Assembly: GCF_000377405.1 (NCBI RefSeq)
Contig: NZ_KB905028.1
Location: forward strand, 1 to 60,134
Length of the DNA: 60,134 nt
Origin: Thioalkalivibrio sp. ALE31
GTDB lineage: Bacteria > Pseudomonadota > Gammaproteobacteria > Ectothiorhodospirales > Ectothiorhodospiraceae
Reading direction: 5' to 3'
Under the pieces are notes generated by a model, which saw only the letters and a list, made by a program, of their open reading frames with translations, had not been told where the DNA came from and ran no database searches. This document shows, one piece after another, positions 29,819 through 37,340 of this stretch. The stretch's first letter is position 1, and every line of letters starts with the position of its first letter. The position numbers and the translations under genes are program-made.

Positions 29819-30574
29819 TTAAACCGGCGTTCGTGGGCGCGCCCGGCCCGGGCTGCGAACCGGTTCCGGGTCGGCGGACCAGATCCATCCCTCGCGCGCG
29901 GCGATCGCGGCCTCGTCTGCCGTCGGCGCAACCGCCTGCCCGTCCAGAAAATCGGCCCCGGCCAGTACGCACAGCACGGCATCCACCACATCGTCAGTGA
30001 CATCGTCCAGGTCCGGCACGGACACCTCGAAGGACCCCGGCAGCCGGGCTCGGACGTCGACCCGAGTCTCCCAGCCTCGGACCTTGCGCAAGGCAGCCGG
30101 ATACACCTCGATCGCGGTCGAATCGGCAATCGGCCCGGCCACCCTGGGCAGCGGAAGCGACTGCCCGCTGTGGTCGCGCAGGGCCTGCAACAGGTTGACC
30201 GCCGCCAGCGCGGTGCGCGCGATGAAGTTCGCCCCCACCTCCAGCGGGCGTTTGCCAAGGCGCTCCCGGATCACCCGGTCCGTATGACGGTGGAACATTG
30301 CATCGGCGTGCGCCGCGATGCCCGCCCCGGCCTGGTGCCCGGCCAGCTCGCTTGCCAGGCTCGATGGCCAGCCAAGCGGCGCATCCAGGCACAGCAGAAC
30401 GGGTTCCGGCGTATCCATCCAGCCGCCCAGGATCGCGGCGGGCGGTTCAGTCGGGGATGCGCGCCGTGCCGCCTCCAGACGCAGAACCCCGCCGGACCAG
30501 CGGGCCAGAGCCAGGCCCGTCTTGCGTGGCTGGGTCGCACAATCGACCCCGATGATGCGGACGGTGCCGCTCAC
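29819..30574 (-). CDS. DUF429 domain protein
   Basis: A 251-residue protein with the DUF429 pattern: RIIGVDCATQPRKTGLALA at the start (an RNase H-like strand with Asp), VLLCLDAPLGWPSSL near residue 60, FHRHTDRVIRERLGKRPLEVGANFIARTALAAVNLL and IEVYPAALRKVRGW, then DDVVDAVLCVLAGADFLDGQA. The acidic residues are in place for a metal-dependent nuclease fold, but the family has no proven activity. It starts with GTG at 30574, overlapping the stop codon of the FKBP-methyltransferase gene by four bases. Confidence 0.85.
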   Translation of the reverse strand: MSGTVRIIGVDCATQPRKTGLALARWSGGVLRLEAARRASPTEPPAAILGGWMDTPEPVLLCLDAPLGWPSSLASELAGHQAGAGIAAHADAMFHRHTDRVIRERLGKRPLEVGANFIARTALAAVNLLQALRDHSGQSLPLPRVAGPIADSTAIEVYPAALRKVRGWETRVDVRARLPGSFEVSVPDLDDVTDDVVDAVLCVLAGADFLDGQAVAPTADEAAIAAREGWIWSADPEPVRSPGRARPRTPV

Positions 30575-31812
30575 GGCCGCCGGCCCCAGACCGCGAACAC
30601 CGGATCGGCATGCTCCAGTCGCCCGGCATACGGGTCGTCCGGGGGTCTCGGCAGCCCACGCAGGGAGAAGGTCGACAGATCCACGAAGCCGGCGCGCAGA
30701 AAGACGTCGAGGACCAGCCCCATGCGCTCGAAGTCGTACAGCGGCTCCCAGGCCGCGATCGCCTTGGTCGGAAAGCAGCGATCGGAGAACGTGACCATGA
30801 ACACCCCGTCCGGGCGCAGCACCTCGCGTACCGCGCGGAACACCGCCTCGGGCTGCGTCAGGTATTCGACCGACGCGGTACAGACCACGGCATCGAAGCT
30901 CGCCGCCGCATACGGCAGTTCCGGACGGAGGTTCAGGTCGTGCACCAAGGATGACGTCAGCCGGGGGTTGTCCGCCAGCTCCTCGGCGTTCATGCCCAGC
31001 CCGATCACGGCTTCAGGCGACTCGACTCGGTCCAGGTGGGACTCCCAGCTGCTCATCAGGTCGAGCACCCGCGCACCCGCCGGGATGCAGGCGGCATACA
31101 GCGCGGCGATCTCGGCCCGCGCGGTCGCGTCCAGGTGGTGCACCCGGCGCGGCTCGGCATAGAACACCGCATCGGACTCCGGGTCCTCGCGCCCCAGCGC
31201 CCCGTCGGCCCAGAAGTCGGTCGGCCGTCCACGCCAGCGGGCCTGCATGCCCGGCCCGCGGGCCGTCAGCAGCCGGGCGACATCCACCGCCCGCTCATCG
31301 TCACGCCCAACCTCGTGGCGCGCCATGACCCGCGCCTGCAGCCGCAGCTCGTGCCCGGCCAGCGGATGATTCCGATCCGCCACCAGGTGATCACCCTCCA
31401 GCGCCCCGATCCGGAACAACTCGCGATCCCCGGCCTCGATCCCCGCATGACCGGCAAGGAACGCACGCGGGTAGAAACGCCCCGCACGGGGCTCCACCCG
31501 GCGGTGCCGGCGCAGGCCCCGGTTGAACGCCGATGCCGGAAGCTCCAGCACACGGTCGGCCTCCTCTTGCGGAACCAGGGCCGCGGCGGCCTCGCGGGAG
31601 GCCTCGTGCGCCAGCCCCGCGCCCGACCCGCGCAGGGCGGCCCCGAGATCGCCCGGCCAGCGGTCCCGTTCCGGCTCCAGCCACGGCAGGAACAGACACT
31701 CCCGGTGACGGGCCTCGGCACTCACCCAGTCCAGCGTGAAGCCGACATCCACAGCCATTCCCTGCGTCGGTCGCGCTTCACTGTTATTCGGATTGGCGAA
31801 TGGATCCCGCAT
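30571..31812 (-). CDS. SlyD-like FKBP fused to a class I methyltransferase
   Basis: A 413-residue two-domain protein. Residues about 18-170 read as an FKBP-type prolyl isomerase of the SlyD type: MAVDVGFTLDWVSAEA at the start and the strongly typical ADRNHPLAGHELRLQARVM near residue 145-163. Residues about 225-400 are a SAM-binding Rossmann domain: AGARVLDLMSSWESHLD as motif I, VIGLGMNAEEL, LPYAAASFDAVVCTASVEYL and VLRPDGVFMVTFSDRCFPTKA. The start at 31812 has GGGAGG ahead of it. The two domains suggest that the isomerase presents a protein substrate for methylation, but this is an inference. Translation is coupled to the DUF429 gene. Confidence 0.75.
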   Translation of the reverse strand: MRDPFANPNNSEARPTQGMAVDVGFTLDWVSAEARHRECLFLPWLEPERDRWPGDLGAALRGSGAGLAHEASREAAAALVPQEEADRVLELPASAFNRGLRRHRRVEPRAGRFYPRAFLAGHAGIEAGDRELFRIGALEGDHLVADRNHPLAGHELRLQARVMARHEVGRDDERAVDVARLLTARGPGMQARWRGRPTDFWADGALGREDPESDAVFYAEPRRVHHLDATARAEIAALYAACIPAGARVLDLMSSWESHLDRVESPEAVIGLGMNAEELADNPRLTSSLVHDLNLRPELPYAAASFDAVVCTASVEYLTQPEAVFRAVREVLRPDGVFMVTFSDRCFPTKAIAAWEPLYDFERMGLVLDVFLRAGFVDLSTFSLRGLPRPPDDPYAGRLEHADPVFAVWGRRP

Positions 31813-31886: not shown

Positions 31887-33011
31887 ATGCCCCGCACCCT
31901 CTGCTCGCCCCCGTTTGTGTCGCTGCTGGCCGGCGCAGTGTTCGTGTTCGCCACGTTGCTGAGCCTGCCGTCCGCTCAGGCCGAGGGAGATGAGGCCCGC
32001 GGCATCGGCGCCGATTCGACCCTGCGCGTGGGGACGCGCTTCGTGCCACCGTTCGTGATTGCGCCGGAGGAGCCGGGCGCCGCTCCTTCCGGCATTGCCA
32101 TCGAACTGTGGGAGCGGGTCGCGGAACGCATGGAACTGGACTCCGACTACCGGGAGACCAGCCTCGAGGGACTCATCGAGGGCCTGGGGGATGACCGTAT
32201 CGATATCTCGGTCGCGGCCCTAACCGCGACCGCTGAACGCGCCGAACGGGTCGACTTCACCCATCCGTACTACAGCACCGGGCTGTCGATTGCCGTGCCC
32301 CAGCAGGGCAACCCGGTCGCCGGGGCCCTGCGCGCGTTCATCTCCATACCCTTCCTGATGGTCATCCTCGCGCTCTCCGGACTGCTCCTGCTGGTGGGTG
32401 CGCTGCTCTGGCTGTTCGAACGCCGGCGCAACGCTGACGAGTTCGGCGGCAGTGCCGCACAAGGGCTCGGCTCCGCGTTCTGGTGGGCCGCCGTGACCAT
32501 GACCACGGTGGGCTATGGCGACAAGGCCCCGCGCACCCTGCCCGGCCGCGCGATTGCGCTGGTCTGGATGTTCGCGGCGCTGATCCTGGTCTCCACCTTC
32601 ACCGCCGCCATTGCGACCACGCTGACCGTCAGTTCGCTGGACACCGGCATCCAGAATGTCTCCGACCTGGAGGGCCAGCGCATCGCCACCATCGGCGGCT
32701 CCAGTGCCGCCGCCTGGCTGGACGACCAGGGCTTTGCCTACCGTGACCATGCGGACCTCGCCACCGCACTGGGCGCAGTCGCCGAGGGCCGGGCCGACGC
32801 CATGGTCTACGACGCTCCGCTGCTGCGCTATCAGGTCCGCGAGCACTTTGCGGGGCAACTGGAGGTTCTGCCGGTCGAGTTTCTGCGCCAGGACTATGCC
32901 CTCGCCCTGCCCCAGGGCTCGCCGCTGCGCGCCCCGATGAACGTCGCTATCCTCGAGATTCTGGAATCCGACGAGTGGCAGCGGGTGCTGCGGCGCTATC
33001 TCGGCAACTGA
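31887..33011 (+). CDS. GluR0-like ligand-gated potassium channel
   Basis: A 374-residue protein with a signal peptide (VSLLAGAVFVFATLLSLPSAQA) and a periplasmic amino-acid-binding domain in two halves (residues about 45-145: TLRVGTRFVPPFVI...GIAIELWERVAERM...DISVAALTATAERAERVDFTHPYY; and about 255-370). Inserted between them are a helix (FISIPFLMVILALSGLLLLVGALLWLFERR), a pore loop with the K+ selectivity filter TMTTVGYGD, and a third helix. This is the layout of prokaryotic ionotropic glutamate receptors. The ligand cannot be predicted with certainty. It leads a three-gene plus-strand run with two PII-like genes. Confidence 0.9.
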   Translation: MPRTLCSPPFVSLLAGAVFVFATLLSLPSAQAEGDEARGIGADSTLRVGTRFVPPFVIAPEEPGAAPSGIAIELWERVAERMELDSDYRETSLEGLIEGLGDDRIDISVAALTATAERAERVDFTHPYYSTGLSIAVPQQGNPVAGALRAFISIPFLMVILALSGLLLLVGALLWLFERRRNADEFGGSAAQGLGSAFWWAAVTMTTVGYGDKAPRTLPGRAIALVWMFAALILVSTFTAAIATTLTVSSLDTGIQNVSDLEGQRIATIGGSSAAAWLDDQGFAYRDHADLATALGAVAEGRADAMVYDAPLLRYQVREHFAGQLEVLPVEFLRQDYALALPQGSPLRAPMNVAILEILESDEWQRVLRRYLGN

Positions 33012-33038
33012 CGGAGCCTGTCACGGGGAGACACCATC

Positions 33039-33368
33039 ATGGAGGAGACCTTTCTGATCGCGATCGTCGACCAGGACCGCGAGGAGCAGGCCCTGGCCAT
33101 CGCCGCCGAGGAAGGCGGCGCGGACGGGGCGGTGATCCAGGGTTCGGGCCTCGGTTTCCCCGAGCACATGACCTTTCTCGGCGTGACCTACCAGGGCAAC
33201 GAGTCGGTCTGCATCTGGCAGCTGGATACCGCGCGCGCCGAACGCATTGCGCAGCGCCTGAACCTGGAGCTCGACCTGTTCCAGCCCTACAACGGGCTTG
33301 CCTTCACCCTGGACGTGAACGCCCTTCAGGGCATGGAGTTCGTCGGCCACCTGACCACCACGCCCTGA
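33039..33368 (+). CDS. PII-like small signalling protein 1
   Basis: A 109-residue cytoplasmic protein with the ferredoxin-like beta-alpha-beta pattern of PII proteins: TFLIAIVDQDREEQALAIAAEEGGADGAVIQGSG, then strands around VCIWQLDTARAERIAQRL and the ending NGLAFTLDVNALQGME, which resembles the C-terminal nucleotide-site region of PII-like families. There is no uridylylation Tyr in a T-loop of the GlnB type. GGGGAGA precedes the ATG, 27 bases after the channel gene. The assignment to PII-like proteins is by pattern, and the bound effector is unknown. Confidence 0.65.
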   Translation: MEETFLIAIVDQDREEQALAIAAEEGGADGAVIQGSGLGFPEHMTFLGVTYQGNESVCIWQLDTARAERIAQRLNLELDLFQPYNGLAFTLDVNALQGMEFVGHLTTTP

Positions 33369-33393
33369 CGCCCCCGGATACGGAGACTCTGCC

Positions 33394-33738
33394 ATGCAAT
33401 TCGTTCTGCTCGCCGCCGTCATCCCGCGCAGCCTGGCCGACCGCGCGATCGAGATCGTTCAGCGCGACGGGGCCGCCGGCCTGACCCTACTGGATGCCCA
33501 GGGCATCGCCCAGCTGCGGCGCAACCCGGTCATGGACCTGAAGGACACCTCCGGCCGCAAGGTGCTGCTGATGGTGCTGGAGTCCAGCCTTGCCCGGCGC
33601 ATGCTGGACCACCTGGACGCGGAACTGGAACTGAGCCGACTGGGCAACGGGTTTGCCGTGACCCTGCCGATCAAGGACATCGCCGGCATCAAGCCGGAAC
33701 AGATCGAGCACCTGCGCAAGACGCTCGGGAAACACTGA
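33394..33738 (+). CDS. PII-like small signalling protein 2
   Basis: A 114-residue paralogue of the preceding protein: FVLLAAVIPRSLADRAIEIVQRDGAAGLTLLDAQG, KVLLMVLESSLARRMLDHLD and NGFAVTLPIKDIAGIKPE, which lines up with NGLAFTLDVNALQGME of the first. The region corresponding to the T-loop is short and basic (QLRRNPVMDLKDTSGRK). It begins 25 bases after its partner with GGAGA ahead of the ATG. Both probably form trimers, perhaps mixed, but this is an inference. Convergent with the BCCT gene, whose stop lies seven bases away. Confidence 0.65.
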   Translation: MQFVLLAAVIPRSLADRAIEIVQRDGAAGLTLLDAQGIAQLRRNPVMDLKDTSGRKVLLMVLESSLARRMLDHLDAELELSRLGNGFAVTLPIKDIAGIKPEQIEHLRKTLGKH

Positions 33739-33745
33739 ACGCGGC

Positions 33746-35290
33746 TCAACGCCAGGGCGGATCCACGCCCTCCACACGATACTCGCGGCCCAGCGCGCGC
33801 AGCAGGCTGAAGCAGCAGAAGACCAGGATGATTGCCACTGGCAGCCCGGCGGTCAGGGAGCCGGTCTGCAGGCTGTCCAGCGCGCGCTCGCCGCCGACGA
33901 TCAGCAGCGTCGCGGCCACCGCGCCCTCGGTAATCCCCCAGATCACCCGCTGGCGCTTCGGCGAGTGCTTCGAGCCGCGCGAGATCAGTGCATCCACCAC
34001 GTAGGTGCCGGAGGCCGACGAGGTGATGAAGTAGGTCGCGATCAGCAGGGTCGCCACGCCAGAGGCGATCGTGGTCCAGGGCAGCTGCGCGAGGGTCGCG
34101 TACAGGGCCACGGTGGTGTCCTCGGCGACCGCCGCGGCGATGCCCGCGCCGTCGTCGAACAGCTCCATGTGCAATGCAGTGCCGCCGAAGATCGCCATCC
34201 AGGCGAACACGAACAGGCTGGGCAGGGCGAGCACGCCGACGATGAACTCGCGGATGGTGCGCCCGCGCGAGATGCGCGCGATGAAGATGCCGACGAACGG
34301 CGACCAGGCGATCCACCACGCCCAGTAGAACATGGTCCAGTCCTTCTGCCACTGCGAACCGCCGATGGCGTCGGTGTGCAGGCTGAGCTGGATGATCTGC
34401 TGCAGATAGCCGCCGGTGGAGTCGAGGAAGAAGCGCAGGATGAACAGCGTCGGCCCGGCGATCAGCACGAACAGCATGAAGCTGATCGCCAGCACCAGGT
34501 TGAACACGCTGACCCACTTCAGCCCGCGATCGAGCCCGGAGATCACCGACAGCACTGCCACCGCGGTGATCGCGGTAATGATGCCCACCTGCCACCAGTG
34601 CGAGACCGGCATGTCGACCAGCACGTTGAGCCCGGTATTGAGCTGCATCGCCCCGAACCCCAGCGAAGTCGCCAGCCCGAACAGGGTGCCGAACACCGCG
34701 AGGATGTCGATCACATGCCCGATCGGGCCGTAGATGCGATCCCCCAGCAGCGGGTAGAAGATCGAGCGGATGGTCAGCGGCAGGCGGTGCCGGAAGCTGA
34801 AATAGGCGACCGACAGCCCCAGCACCACGTACACCGCCCAGGCATGCAGGCCCCAGTGGAAGAAGGTGTAGACCATCGCCTGGCGCGCGGCCGCGTCGGT
34901 CTCGCCATCGCCGGTCGGCGGGTGCTGGTAGTGCAGGATCGGCTCGGCCACACTCCAGAACACGAGGCCAATCCCCATACCGGCGGAGAACAGCATCGCG
35001 AACCAGGCAGCGAAACCGAACTCCGGCCGGTCGTCCGGCTGCCCCAGCCGGATCACGCCATAGCGGCTGAAACCCAGCCAGATCAAAAAGCCAAGGAAGA
35101 AGGTCACCACCAGCAGGTAGCCCCAGCCGAGATACTCGGTGATAAAGCCGTGGATGCTGGCGAACACCTCGCTGGCCGTGGACGGGAAGATCACCCCGAA
35201 GGCGACGAACACCACCACCATGATCGCGGAGGCAGTGAACACCGTCGGGTTCACCGTGGCGAAGAAGGCCTCCGGGCGATAGTCATTCAT
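33746..35290 (-). CDS. BCCT-family betaine/choline/carnitine-type transporter
   Basis: A 514-residue carrier with twelve helices. The BCCT signatures are present: EFGFAAWFAMLFSAGMGIGLVFWSVAEPILHY, FFHWGLHAWAVYVVLGLSVAYFSFRHRLPLTIRSIFYPLLG and WTMFYWAWWIAWSPFVGIFIARISRGRTIREFI, which holds the aromatic box for quaternary amines. The C-terminal tail is short, without a long osmosensor domain. In a halophile it would import glycine betaine or a similar solute. It stands tail to tail with the PII-like genes and 24 bases before the PEBP gene end. Confidence 0.93.
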   Translation of the reverse strand: MNDYRPEAFFATVNPTVFTASAIMVVVFVAFGVIFPSTASEVFASIHGFITEYLGWGYLLVVTFFLGFLIWLGFSRYGVIRLGQPDDRPEFGFAAWFAMLFSAGMGIGLVFWSVAEPILHYQHPPTGDGETDAAARQAMVYTFFHWGLHAWAVYVVLGLSVAYFSFRHRLPLTIRSIFYPLLGDRIYGPIGHVIDILAVFGTLFGLATSLGFGAMQLNTGLNVLVDMPVSHWWQVGIITAITAVAVLSVISGLDRGLKWVSVFNLVLAISFMLFVLIAGPTLFILRFFLDSTGGYLQQIIQLSLHTDAIGGSQWQKDWTMFYWAWWIAWSPFVGIFIARISRGRTIREFIVGVLALPSLFVFAWMAIFGGTALHMELFDDGAGIAAAVAEDTTVALYATLAQLPWTTIASGVATLLIATYFITSSASGTYVVDALISRGSKHSPKRQRVIWGITEGAVAATLLIVGGERALDSLQTGSLTAGLPVAIILVFCCFSLLRALGREYRVEGVDPPWR

Positions 35291-35939: not shown

Positions 35940-37340
35940 ATGGCAAAGCTGACCTTTCAGGGGGCGACCGGCGAGGTCACCGGATCGCGTTATCTCCTCG
36001 AGACCGACGACGCCCGCATCCTGCTGGAATGCGGGATGTACCAGGGCAACAGTGATGCGGACGAGGCGAACCGCGCCCCGCTCGCCGAGCTGGCGGAAAG
36101 CCTCGACGCGGTGGTGTTGTCGCACGGCCACCTCGACCACTCGGGGCTCCTGCCCAAGCTGGTGCGCGACGGCTACCGCGGCCCGATCTACTGCACGCCG
36201 GGCACCGAGGAACTGCTCGAGATCATGCTCGAGGATGCCGCGTTCGTGATGAGCAAGGACATCGAGTGGGAGAACAAGTGGCGCCGGCGCGCGGACAAGC
36301 CGCTGCTGGAGCCGGTCTATGACATCGACGACGTCGCCACCACCCTCGGGCTGTGCGAGGCCGTGCCCTACGGCCAGGCGCGCAAGATCGCGGGCGGGAT
36401 TGGCCTGACCTTTCGCGATGCCGGGCATATCCTCGGCTCCGCGATCGTGGACCTGATCGTGCCCGCTGGCGGTCGCGACCGGCATCTGGTGTTCTCGGGC
36501 GATCTCGGCAATGCCGACGCCGTGCTGATGCACGAGCCCGCGCGCCCGGAACACGCCGACCACGTGCTGCTGGAGAGCACCTACGGCGACCGCGACCACC
36601 GCCCGATGGAGGAGACGGTCGAGGAGTTCGCGCAGGTGCTGGCCGAGGCCGACAAGAGCGGCGGCAACGTGCTGATCCCGGCCTTCGCGGTCGGCCGCAC
36701 CCAGGAGGTCCTCTACCACCTGAGCATGTTGCACCACGCCGGGCGCCTGCCGCAGCAAAAGGTCTTCCTCGACAGCCCGATGGCGATCAAGGTCACCGAG
36801 CTGTACGCCCGCCTGCGCCGAACGCTGGACCCGGAGGACATGGACCGGCTGCACCAGGCCGCGAATGGGGATCCGGCTGCCTACCTGCCCGGGCTGCAGG
36901 TCTGTCGCACGGTGGAAGAATCCATGGCGATCAACCGCATCACGGGCGGCGCGATCATCATCGCCGGCTCCGGCATGTGCAATGGCGGGCGCATCCGCCA
37001 CCACATGAAGTACAACCTGTGGCGGCGCGAGGCGCATCTGGTGATCGTCGGCTTCCAGGCCGCCGGCACGCTCGGGCGGCGTCTGGTGGACGGCGCCGAG
37101 AAGGTCAAGCTGCTGGGCGACGAGGTCGCGGTGAACGCCAAGATCCATACCCTGGGAGGCTTTTCCGCTCACGCCGGGCGCAGCCAGCTGCTCGACTGGG
37201 CACGCGGCTTTCAGGACCAGCCGGTGTTCCATCTGGTCCACGGCGAGCCGGAGGCGCGCGAGGCCCTGGCCGCCGGCCTGCGTGACGAGCTGGGGGCCGA
37301 GGCGCGTGTGCCCGCCTTCGGCGAGACCATCACCCTGTAA
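35940..37340 (+). CDS. MBL-fold beta-CASP RNA nuclease
   Basis: A 466-residue metallo-beta-lactamase protein of the beta-CASP group (CPSF/YSH1-like). The metal motif is LSHGHLDHSGLLP near residue 56; later come LENT-like ESTYGDRDHR, the beta-CASP segment NVLIPAFAVGRTQEVLYHL, GSGMCNGGRIRHHMKYNLW, and the RNA-specificity domain KIHTLGGFSAHAGRSQLLDWA with HGEPEAREALA at the end. Such enzymes process RNA by endo- or exonuclease action. It is the first of three plus-strand genes ending with an RNA ligase, 21 bases before the Na/Pi carrier. Confidence 0.92.
   Translation: MAKLTFQGATGEVTGSRYLLETDDARILLECGMYQGNSDADEANRAPLAELAESLDAVVLSHGHLDHSGLLPKLVRDGYRGPIYCTPGTEELLEIMLEDAAFVMSKDIEWENKWRRRADKPLLEPVYDIDDVATTLGLCEAVPYGQARKIAGGIGLTFRDAGHILGSAIVDLIVPAGGRDRHLVFSGDLGNADAVLMHEPARPEHADHVLLESTYGDRDHRPMEETVEEFAQVLAEADKSGGNVLIPAFAVGRTQEVLYHLSMLHHAGRLPQQKVFLDSPMAIKVTELYARLRRTLDPEDMDRLHQAANGDPAAYLPGLQVCRTVEESMAINRITGGAIIIAGSGMCNGGRIRHHMKYNLWRREAHLVIVGFQAAGTLGRRLVDGAEKVKLLGDEVAVNAKIHTLGGFSAHAGRSQLLDWARGFQDQPVFHLVHGEPEAREALAAGLRDELGAEARVPAFGETITL

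Follow-up and report, generated by a model that had tools for sequence, protein, structure and literature searches.

The window, by which we mean the whole 60,134-nucleotide stretch of Thioalkalivibrio sp. ALE31 DNA that was analysed, contained a gene for a ligand-gated potassium channel followed by the genes of two small PII-like proteins, P2 and P3 (Table 1). All three open reading frames ran in the same direction. The preliminary description of the locus had given intervals of 27 and 25 bases (channel to P2 and P2 to P3, respectively) and a BCCT gene lying tail to tail with P3, and the coordinates of the open reading frames agreed on both points, the BCCT gene ending at 33746. Two terminator-like sites were detected, both at 31915-31940 near the channel's own start, and none was detected between the channel, P2 and P3 genes. 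A promoter scan, which was uninformative, detected no promoter-like sites at the locus. The methyltransferase-domain gene adjoined the pair or the channel in 14 of 14 genomes and was taken as the marker of the syntenic spot. Further along the window, the BCCT gene and a PEBP gene stood between P3 and the genes of a beta-CASP protein and a Na/Pi cotransporter (NaPi). The beta-CASP metallo-beta-lactamase protein (window positions 35940-37337) scored 364 against a cutoff of 800 with the NCBIfam Cas14-type CASP model.

Table 1. Features of the channel locus, in positions of the window.
Feature	Position	Strand	Remarks
Methyltransferase-domain gene	30571..31806	-	divergent; start approximate
GluR0-type ligand-gated K+ channel	31887..33011	+	374 aa; from domain profiles and solved relatives
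Gap between channel and P2	33012..33038		27 bases; 26-29 bases across the eight trio genomes; terminator-like site absent
P2, putative A-type PII-like protein	33039..33368	+	109 aa; from tree, profile and model
P2 T-loop (predicted)	33144..33200	+	aa 36-54; strands 2-3 of the model
P3, putative PII-like protein, B-type side of the tree	33394..33738	+	114 aa
BCCT betaine/choline-type transporter	33746..35290	-	convergent with P3

The channel protein matched the Pfam families SBP_bac_3 (6.9e-24), Lig_chan (4.3e-19) and Ion_trans_2 (4.8e-13). The SBP_bac_3 match covered amino acids 46-373 and the other two were nested within it, which indicates a ligand domain split by M1-P-M2. Hydrophobic stretches were found at amino acids 143-179 and 217-251, and the K+ selectivity filter TTVGYGD at amino acids 206-212. 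The closest solved structures were GluR0 ligand domains, namely 2pyy (2.2e-29) and 1iit/1ii5 (about 3e-24). Arg 118 and Asp 309 of the channel aligned with an Arg and an Asp of GluR0, which we take to be the amino-acid anchors. The three domain matches, the 2pyy match and the filter bear out the earlier assignment to the GluR0-type K+ channels. GluR0 of Synechocystis (slr1257; relative 2pyy) has the same SBP_bac_3 domain split around M1-P-M2, the same TTVGYGD and the same Arg/Asp pair, and the window channel differs from it only by the PII-like genes 3' of it. The presumed cytosolic loops of the channel, ERRRNADEFGGS and DKAPRTLPGR, were near-alike in solitary channels (e.g., at L160), so that a new docking surface in the channel is not evident. 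Judged by its sequence, the channel protein looks ordinary for the GluR0 family.

At E 1e-20, the class-wide search (369 genomes) gave relatives of the channel in 15 genomes, the window's genome and G223 included, and the phylum-wide search (398 genomes) gave them in 28, the window's genome included. Within the genus, distant relatives were found in three genomes (G288, G276, and G300). The channel-bearing genomes outside the trio clade numbered 43, comprising 13 of the class, 27 of the phylum and 3 of the genus. A scan of about 1.5 kb on each side of their channel genes with a PII-like profile at E 10 found a PII-like open reading frame in 0 of 43, the distance being an upper bound at those channel loci that end at contig edges. 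Both trio loci used as a control were detected by the scan.

The PII proteins are textbook regulators of nitrogen and carbon metabolism, the classical GlnB/GlnK being trimers that bind ATP/ADP/2-oxoglutarate. P2 had no significant Pfam match, and P3 scored 17.6 bits against the Pfam P-II family (PF00543), below the gathering cutoff of 25. The same cutoff was exceeded by five DUF1538-type relatives (25.7 to 49.9 bits), and a P-II match was absent in two scanned PII-like proteins (the outgroup P3 and L013). A profile built from 38 members of the family retrieved P-II chains from the PDB, the best being 9p1x (6.4e-9). The AlphaFold models had a mean pLDDT of 73.5 for P2 and 79.1 for P3, with a poor T-loop in both. 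Their top 50 Foldseek matches were PII proteins of the GlnK/GlnB type, SbtB, CPII, PotN, CutA1 and other PII-like proteins, with E values of about 1e-5 to 3e-4 and TM scores to the query of 0.50-0.67. The structure models and the 38-member profile thus upheld the earlier view that both small proteins are PII-like; the predicted fold of P2 and P3 is clearly that of PII (ferredoxin-like babbab), with a match that is not tight.

The identity between P2 and P3 was 23%. The motif NGxAxTL, which had been described as an ending shared by the two proteins, is present in both; it was rejected as a private mark of the pair, as it sits at the PII B-loop and the next strand, a site at which G-x-A-F is common across the subfamily. 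The classical T-loop modification motif of GlnB/GlnK is YRGAEY, in place of which P2 has TYQGNES; P3 is without any such stretch. The phosphate contacts in the nucleotide site of PII are made by the Lys of GDGK and the Args of the C-loop (RTGE). At the aligned positions P2 contained YNGLAFTL and P3 contained GNGFAVTL...GIKPEQ, and the Lys and Args were not seen. P2 and P3 therefore differ from GlnK in having no YRGAEY-type T-loop and neither the GDGK lysine nor the C-loop arginines. The seven named relatives of P2 came from Thioalkalivibrio (six) and an Azoarcus MAG (one), and a search of plasmids with P2 gave no match at E 1e-3.

A survey of gene neighbourhoods, as suggested in the preliminary description, found the trio conserved beyond the strain: the order channel-P2-P3 was present in 8 of the 30 genomes of the genus (G000, G296, G223, G281, G283, G274, G298, and G277). 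The close form of the channel stood immediately 5' of P2, with a gap of 26-29 bases, in all eight genomes carrying that form. P2 and P3 were found at the same syntenic spot in 14 of the 30 genomes, six of which (G275, G294, G293, G297, G279, and G285) contained no channel relative at E 1e-20. The trio as a fixed unit was rejected, because the pair persists in these six genomes. What stays constant at the locus is thus the P2-P3 pair rather than the trio. In the P2-P3 tree, type I comprised G000, G223, G296, G281, and G283, all five with the channel, and the second set comprised G274, G298, and G277 with the channel and G275, G294, G293, and G297 without it.

A K+/H+ antiporter of the CvrA type (NCBIfam PRK05326) was present 3' of P3, on the opposite strand and convergent with it, in five relatives (G275, G294, G293, G297, and G277) and not at that spot in the window. 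G277 contained both transporters at the locus, the channel as well as the antiporter. The G275 antiporter (L005), the sole copy scanned, had a K+/H+ antiporter score of 797.6 against a cutoff of 309, and the post-P3 antiporters of the other genomes were 92-93% identical to it. In the window's genome one match to the CvrA-type antiporter was found at E 1e-60; it lay elsewhere, was 49% identical and contained internal stops. BCCT was present at the locus in 7 of the 14 genomes and immediately 3' of P3 in five. G279 and G285 had the order methyltransferase, P2, P3, beta-CASP nuclease, Na/Pi cotransporter, in which the last four genes ran in one direction. The beta-CASP and NaPi genes were absent from the stretch read in G274, G298, G277, G293, and G297.

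Of 274 genomes searched in the class, 76 carried relatives of P2. A separate profile search dropped matches under 20 bits. A DUF1538 gene was present within 1.5 kb at 26 of the 29 loci opened (best matches, with the window's own locus excluded), and the three loci without it were L040, the G223 trio locus and L027, the last being on a short contig. According to PMC5484666, UmpAB (DUF1538) is an assayed Na+(Li+,K+)/H+ antiporter, reported as a hetero-dimer. An A-type PII-like gene, a DUF1538 gene and a B-type PII-like gene stood in a row at L009, L010, L100, L101, and L205. A maximum-likelihood tree computed from 93 proteins separated the P2 rows (14) together with 11 A-type relatives from all others at 100/100. 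The P3 clade (99/95) was placed on the B-type side, its exact branch being open and long branches being flagged; the outgroup P3 was far from the B-type as well, so the origin of P3 is unsure. On these sequence comparisons, P2 is assigned to the A-type and P3 to the B-type of a subfamily whose genes mostly lie next to those of UmpAB-type (DUF1538) antiporters.

Within the genus, 14 A-type genes were found at the window-type locus, 7 beside DUF1538 and 2 (G300 and G290) before a cation ATPase, and no genus genome contained two A-type genes. DUF1538 was detected at E 1e-20 in 29 of the 30 genus genomes. Whereas the relatives of P2 and P3 are mostly encoded alongside UmpAB/DUF1538, the pair of the window lies apart, on contig C9; the antiporter gene of the same genome is on contig C1, where DUF1538 is followed by a B-type PII-like gene and then a CBS gene. 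This DUF1538 protein matched both the UmpA and the UmpB halves, with scores just below the NCBI cutoffs (444.9 vs 490 and 407.4 vs 500, respectively). The osmotic or cation setting proposed for the locus was strengthened by these neighbourhoods, as relatives of the pair adjoin UmpAB-type antiporters, a K+/H+ antiporter and a cation ATPase.

Two further arrangements of the subfamily were observed. At L004:3955-6210 the genes of a fused UmpA-UmpB-like DUF1538 protein, a B-type PII-like protein and a CBS-domain protein were consecutive, and the same three kinds also occurred together at L009, L010, L014, L100, and L101. An A-type PII-like gene was present directly 5' of a P2-type cation-transporting ATPase at L203:2797-5962 (G300) and L204:3389-6548 (G290); these ATPases were PMR1/SERCA-like, under the equivalog cutoffs.

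The dN/dS values (NG86, first 309 bases, G279 and G285 left out) were 0.16 for P2 and 0.22 for P3 with the channel (28 pairs), and 0.10 for P2 and 0.12 for P3 without it (six pairs among G275, G294, G293, and G297). The purifying selection in these four channel-free genomes implies that the pair is maintained without the channel. The T-loop of type I P2 had an identity of 0.60 to the A-type relatives, where the value across the whole alignment was 0.45 (P 0.05 for columns drawn at random), in a test that takes columns as independent, ignoring tree structure, and in which one (L119, G300) of the 11 rows of the comparison group is ATPase-linked and not DUF1538-linked. The corresponding T-loop values were 0.56 (P 0.12) for the second set and 0.62 (P 0.08) for the outgroup P2. 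The likeness of the P2 T-loop to that of the A-type relatives, a weak statistical signal, is suggestive only.

The T-loop of P3 had an identity of 0.15 to the B-type, compared with 0.34 overall (P 0.006), and of 0.15 to the outgroup P3, compared with 0.39 overall (P 0.003). The P3 T-loop identities ranged between 0.13 and 0.15 against 0.33-0.39 overall. The outgroup P3, which is channel-free and has YEG at the T-loop place, was 0.28 identical to the B-type both in the T-loop and overall. The low identity of the T-loop relative to the whole protein indicates that the P3 T-loop was rewritten in a clade of 12 genomes. The loop was of the same kind with the channel and without it (four channel-free genomes), and its identity between the two types was 0.75, the type I group being taken without the window's own P3; the other P3 T-loop comparisons included it. 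Since the rewritten loop is common to channel-free genomes, the channel is unlikely to be the sole target of P3.

In the reading that we favour, to which we give a probability of about 0.5, P2 and P3 are mobile, general regulators of alkali-cation transport; the main target of P2 would be the antiporter to which it is not linked, and P3 would act elsewhere. One Thioalkalivibrio lineage carries the pair at a locus of its own, which genes for K+ transport enter and leave, namely those of the GluR0-type channel upstream and the CvrA-type K+/H+ antiporter downstream. P2 and P3 would be cytosolic oligomers, presumably trimers, which would respond to a small molecule and tune the transporters of alkali cations via their T-loops. 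The P2 T-loop is like that of the antiporter-linked relatives, so the most likely target of P2 is still the UmpAB-like antiporter encoded elsewhere in the genome, on which it would act in trans. P3 probably gained another target, as its rewritten T-loop suggests. Judged by its spacing and neighbours, the channel is probably co-transcribed with the pair and takes part in their response to salt and K+, in which an amino-acid-like ligand would open it from the outer side. Several points count against the reading of the pair as general regulators: the P2 T-loop signal is weak, the origin of P3 is unsure, the UmpA and UmpB scores fall just short of their cutoffs, the DUF1538 link of its relatives is one of adjacency only, the hetero-dimer symmetry of UmpAB is no obvious fit to a PII trimer, and the channel keeps its place before P2.

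The preliminary description had instead seen a channel controlled by an amino acid from outside and by the paired PII-like proteins from inside. In a narrowed form of that model, P2 and/or P3 would bind the cytosolic face of the channel and gate it, so that the channel would respond both to an external amino acid and to a signal of the cell; the likeliest binder would be P3, given the rewriting of its T-loop. The channel standing directly 5' of P2 in 8/8 genomes at 26-29 bases, together with its presence in all five type I genomes, favours some link; further points for gating are the lack of detected terminator-like sites between the genes and the rewriting of the P3 T-loop in the channel-bearing clade, where the channel-free outgroup P3 has YEG. 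The GluR0 pore is described in PMC6385376 as an inverted K+ channel, which would place the filter side towards the cytosol. The idea of a dedicated pair is not supported, in view of the 6 of 14 pair genomes without a channel relative (E 1e-20), the 0 of 43 other channel genomes with a PII-like neighbour (about 1.5 kb), the grouping of P2 with antiporter-linked proteins, and channel cytosolic loops that are much alike in trio and solitary channels. The P3 loop of the same kind in four channel-free genomes also speaks against gating. Moreover, known PII transporter targets appear limited to those able to form trimers (PMC10710835), a symmetry not shared by K+ channels and iGluRs, which form tetramers (PMC6385376). 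We regard direct PII gating of the channel as unlikely, and as less likely than a general regulation of cation transport. The still bolder proposal, that the docking loop of P3 was remodelled so that the protein controls a K+ channel of tetrameric form, or the K+/H+ antiporter in its place, within a wider and apparently undescribed group, seems to us quite unlikely.

It was also considered that the genes are mere neighbours at an insertion-tolerant spot by the methyltransferase gene, the channel, the antiporter and BCCT having no functional tie to the pair. Such a spot would account for the differing genes that flank the pair in differing genomes, for the MITE-like palindrome between P2 and P3 in G274 and G298, and for the exchange of locus pieces by recombination, as in G223; it is rendered somewhat improbable by the fact that the channel and the CvrA-type antiporter are both K+ transporters, by the other cation transporters that adjoin A-type relatives elsewhere in the genus, and by the conserved, operon-like spacing of the channel. 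A regulation of the beta-CASP nuclease or the Na/Pi cotransporter, which lie downstream in another arrangement, appears very improbable: P2, P3, beta-CASP and NaPi follow one another in one direction in G279 and G285, and NaPi belongs to a Na+-coupled transporter family, but BCCT and the PEBP gene intervene in the window and neither gene was in the stretch read in the five genomes named above.

The pair is like the GlnK-AmtB and SbtB-SbtA systems in its PII fold and in having small PII-like genes that adjoin transporter genes; the targets of those two systems are trimers, according to PMC10710835. In the main text of the UmpAB paper (PMC5484666) the terms P-II, PII and nitrogen regulatory were not found. 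Among open-access titles and abstract starts, none linked PII-like proteins to DUF1538 or to a K+ channel; the papers holding both of the former terms were Bacillus genome papers. The parts of the locus are of known kinds, and the open-access searches gave no mention of a link between PII-like proteins and DUF1538 or of such a pair next to a K+ channel gene. If true, control of a K+ channel by P3 would, to our knowledge, be the first case of an ion channel under PII-type control, and the pair would belong to an apparently undescribed PII-like group moving among cation antiporters, channels and cation ATPases. That members of the subfamily adjoin a K+ channel, a cation ATPase and antiporters of the Na+/K+ and K+/H+ kinds suggests a PII-type control of alkali-cation balance, which would be important for salt- and alkali-loving bacteria and is simple to test. 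It also offers a candidate function for the PII-like gene that accompanies DUF1538 across much of the class.

The species tree, built with FastTree on two proteins, conflicted with the P2-P3 gene tree for G223. The G223 locus looks recombinant at about the equivalent of window position 32680: the start of its channel is like that of G274/G277, and the end of the channel, P2 and P3 resemble those of G000, P3 being identical. A palindromic, MITE-like element of about 265-280 bases with the ends GGAAACACTGATCAATGTACA separates P2 and P3 in G274 and G298; none was found in the window. The same end was also present just 3' of P3 in G297 (L086). The coordinates of the element were 7277-7598 in L094 and 6935-7240 in L093, with 2394 and 7045 in L086.
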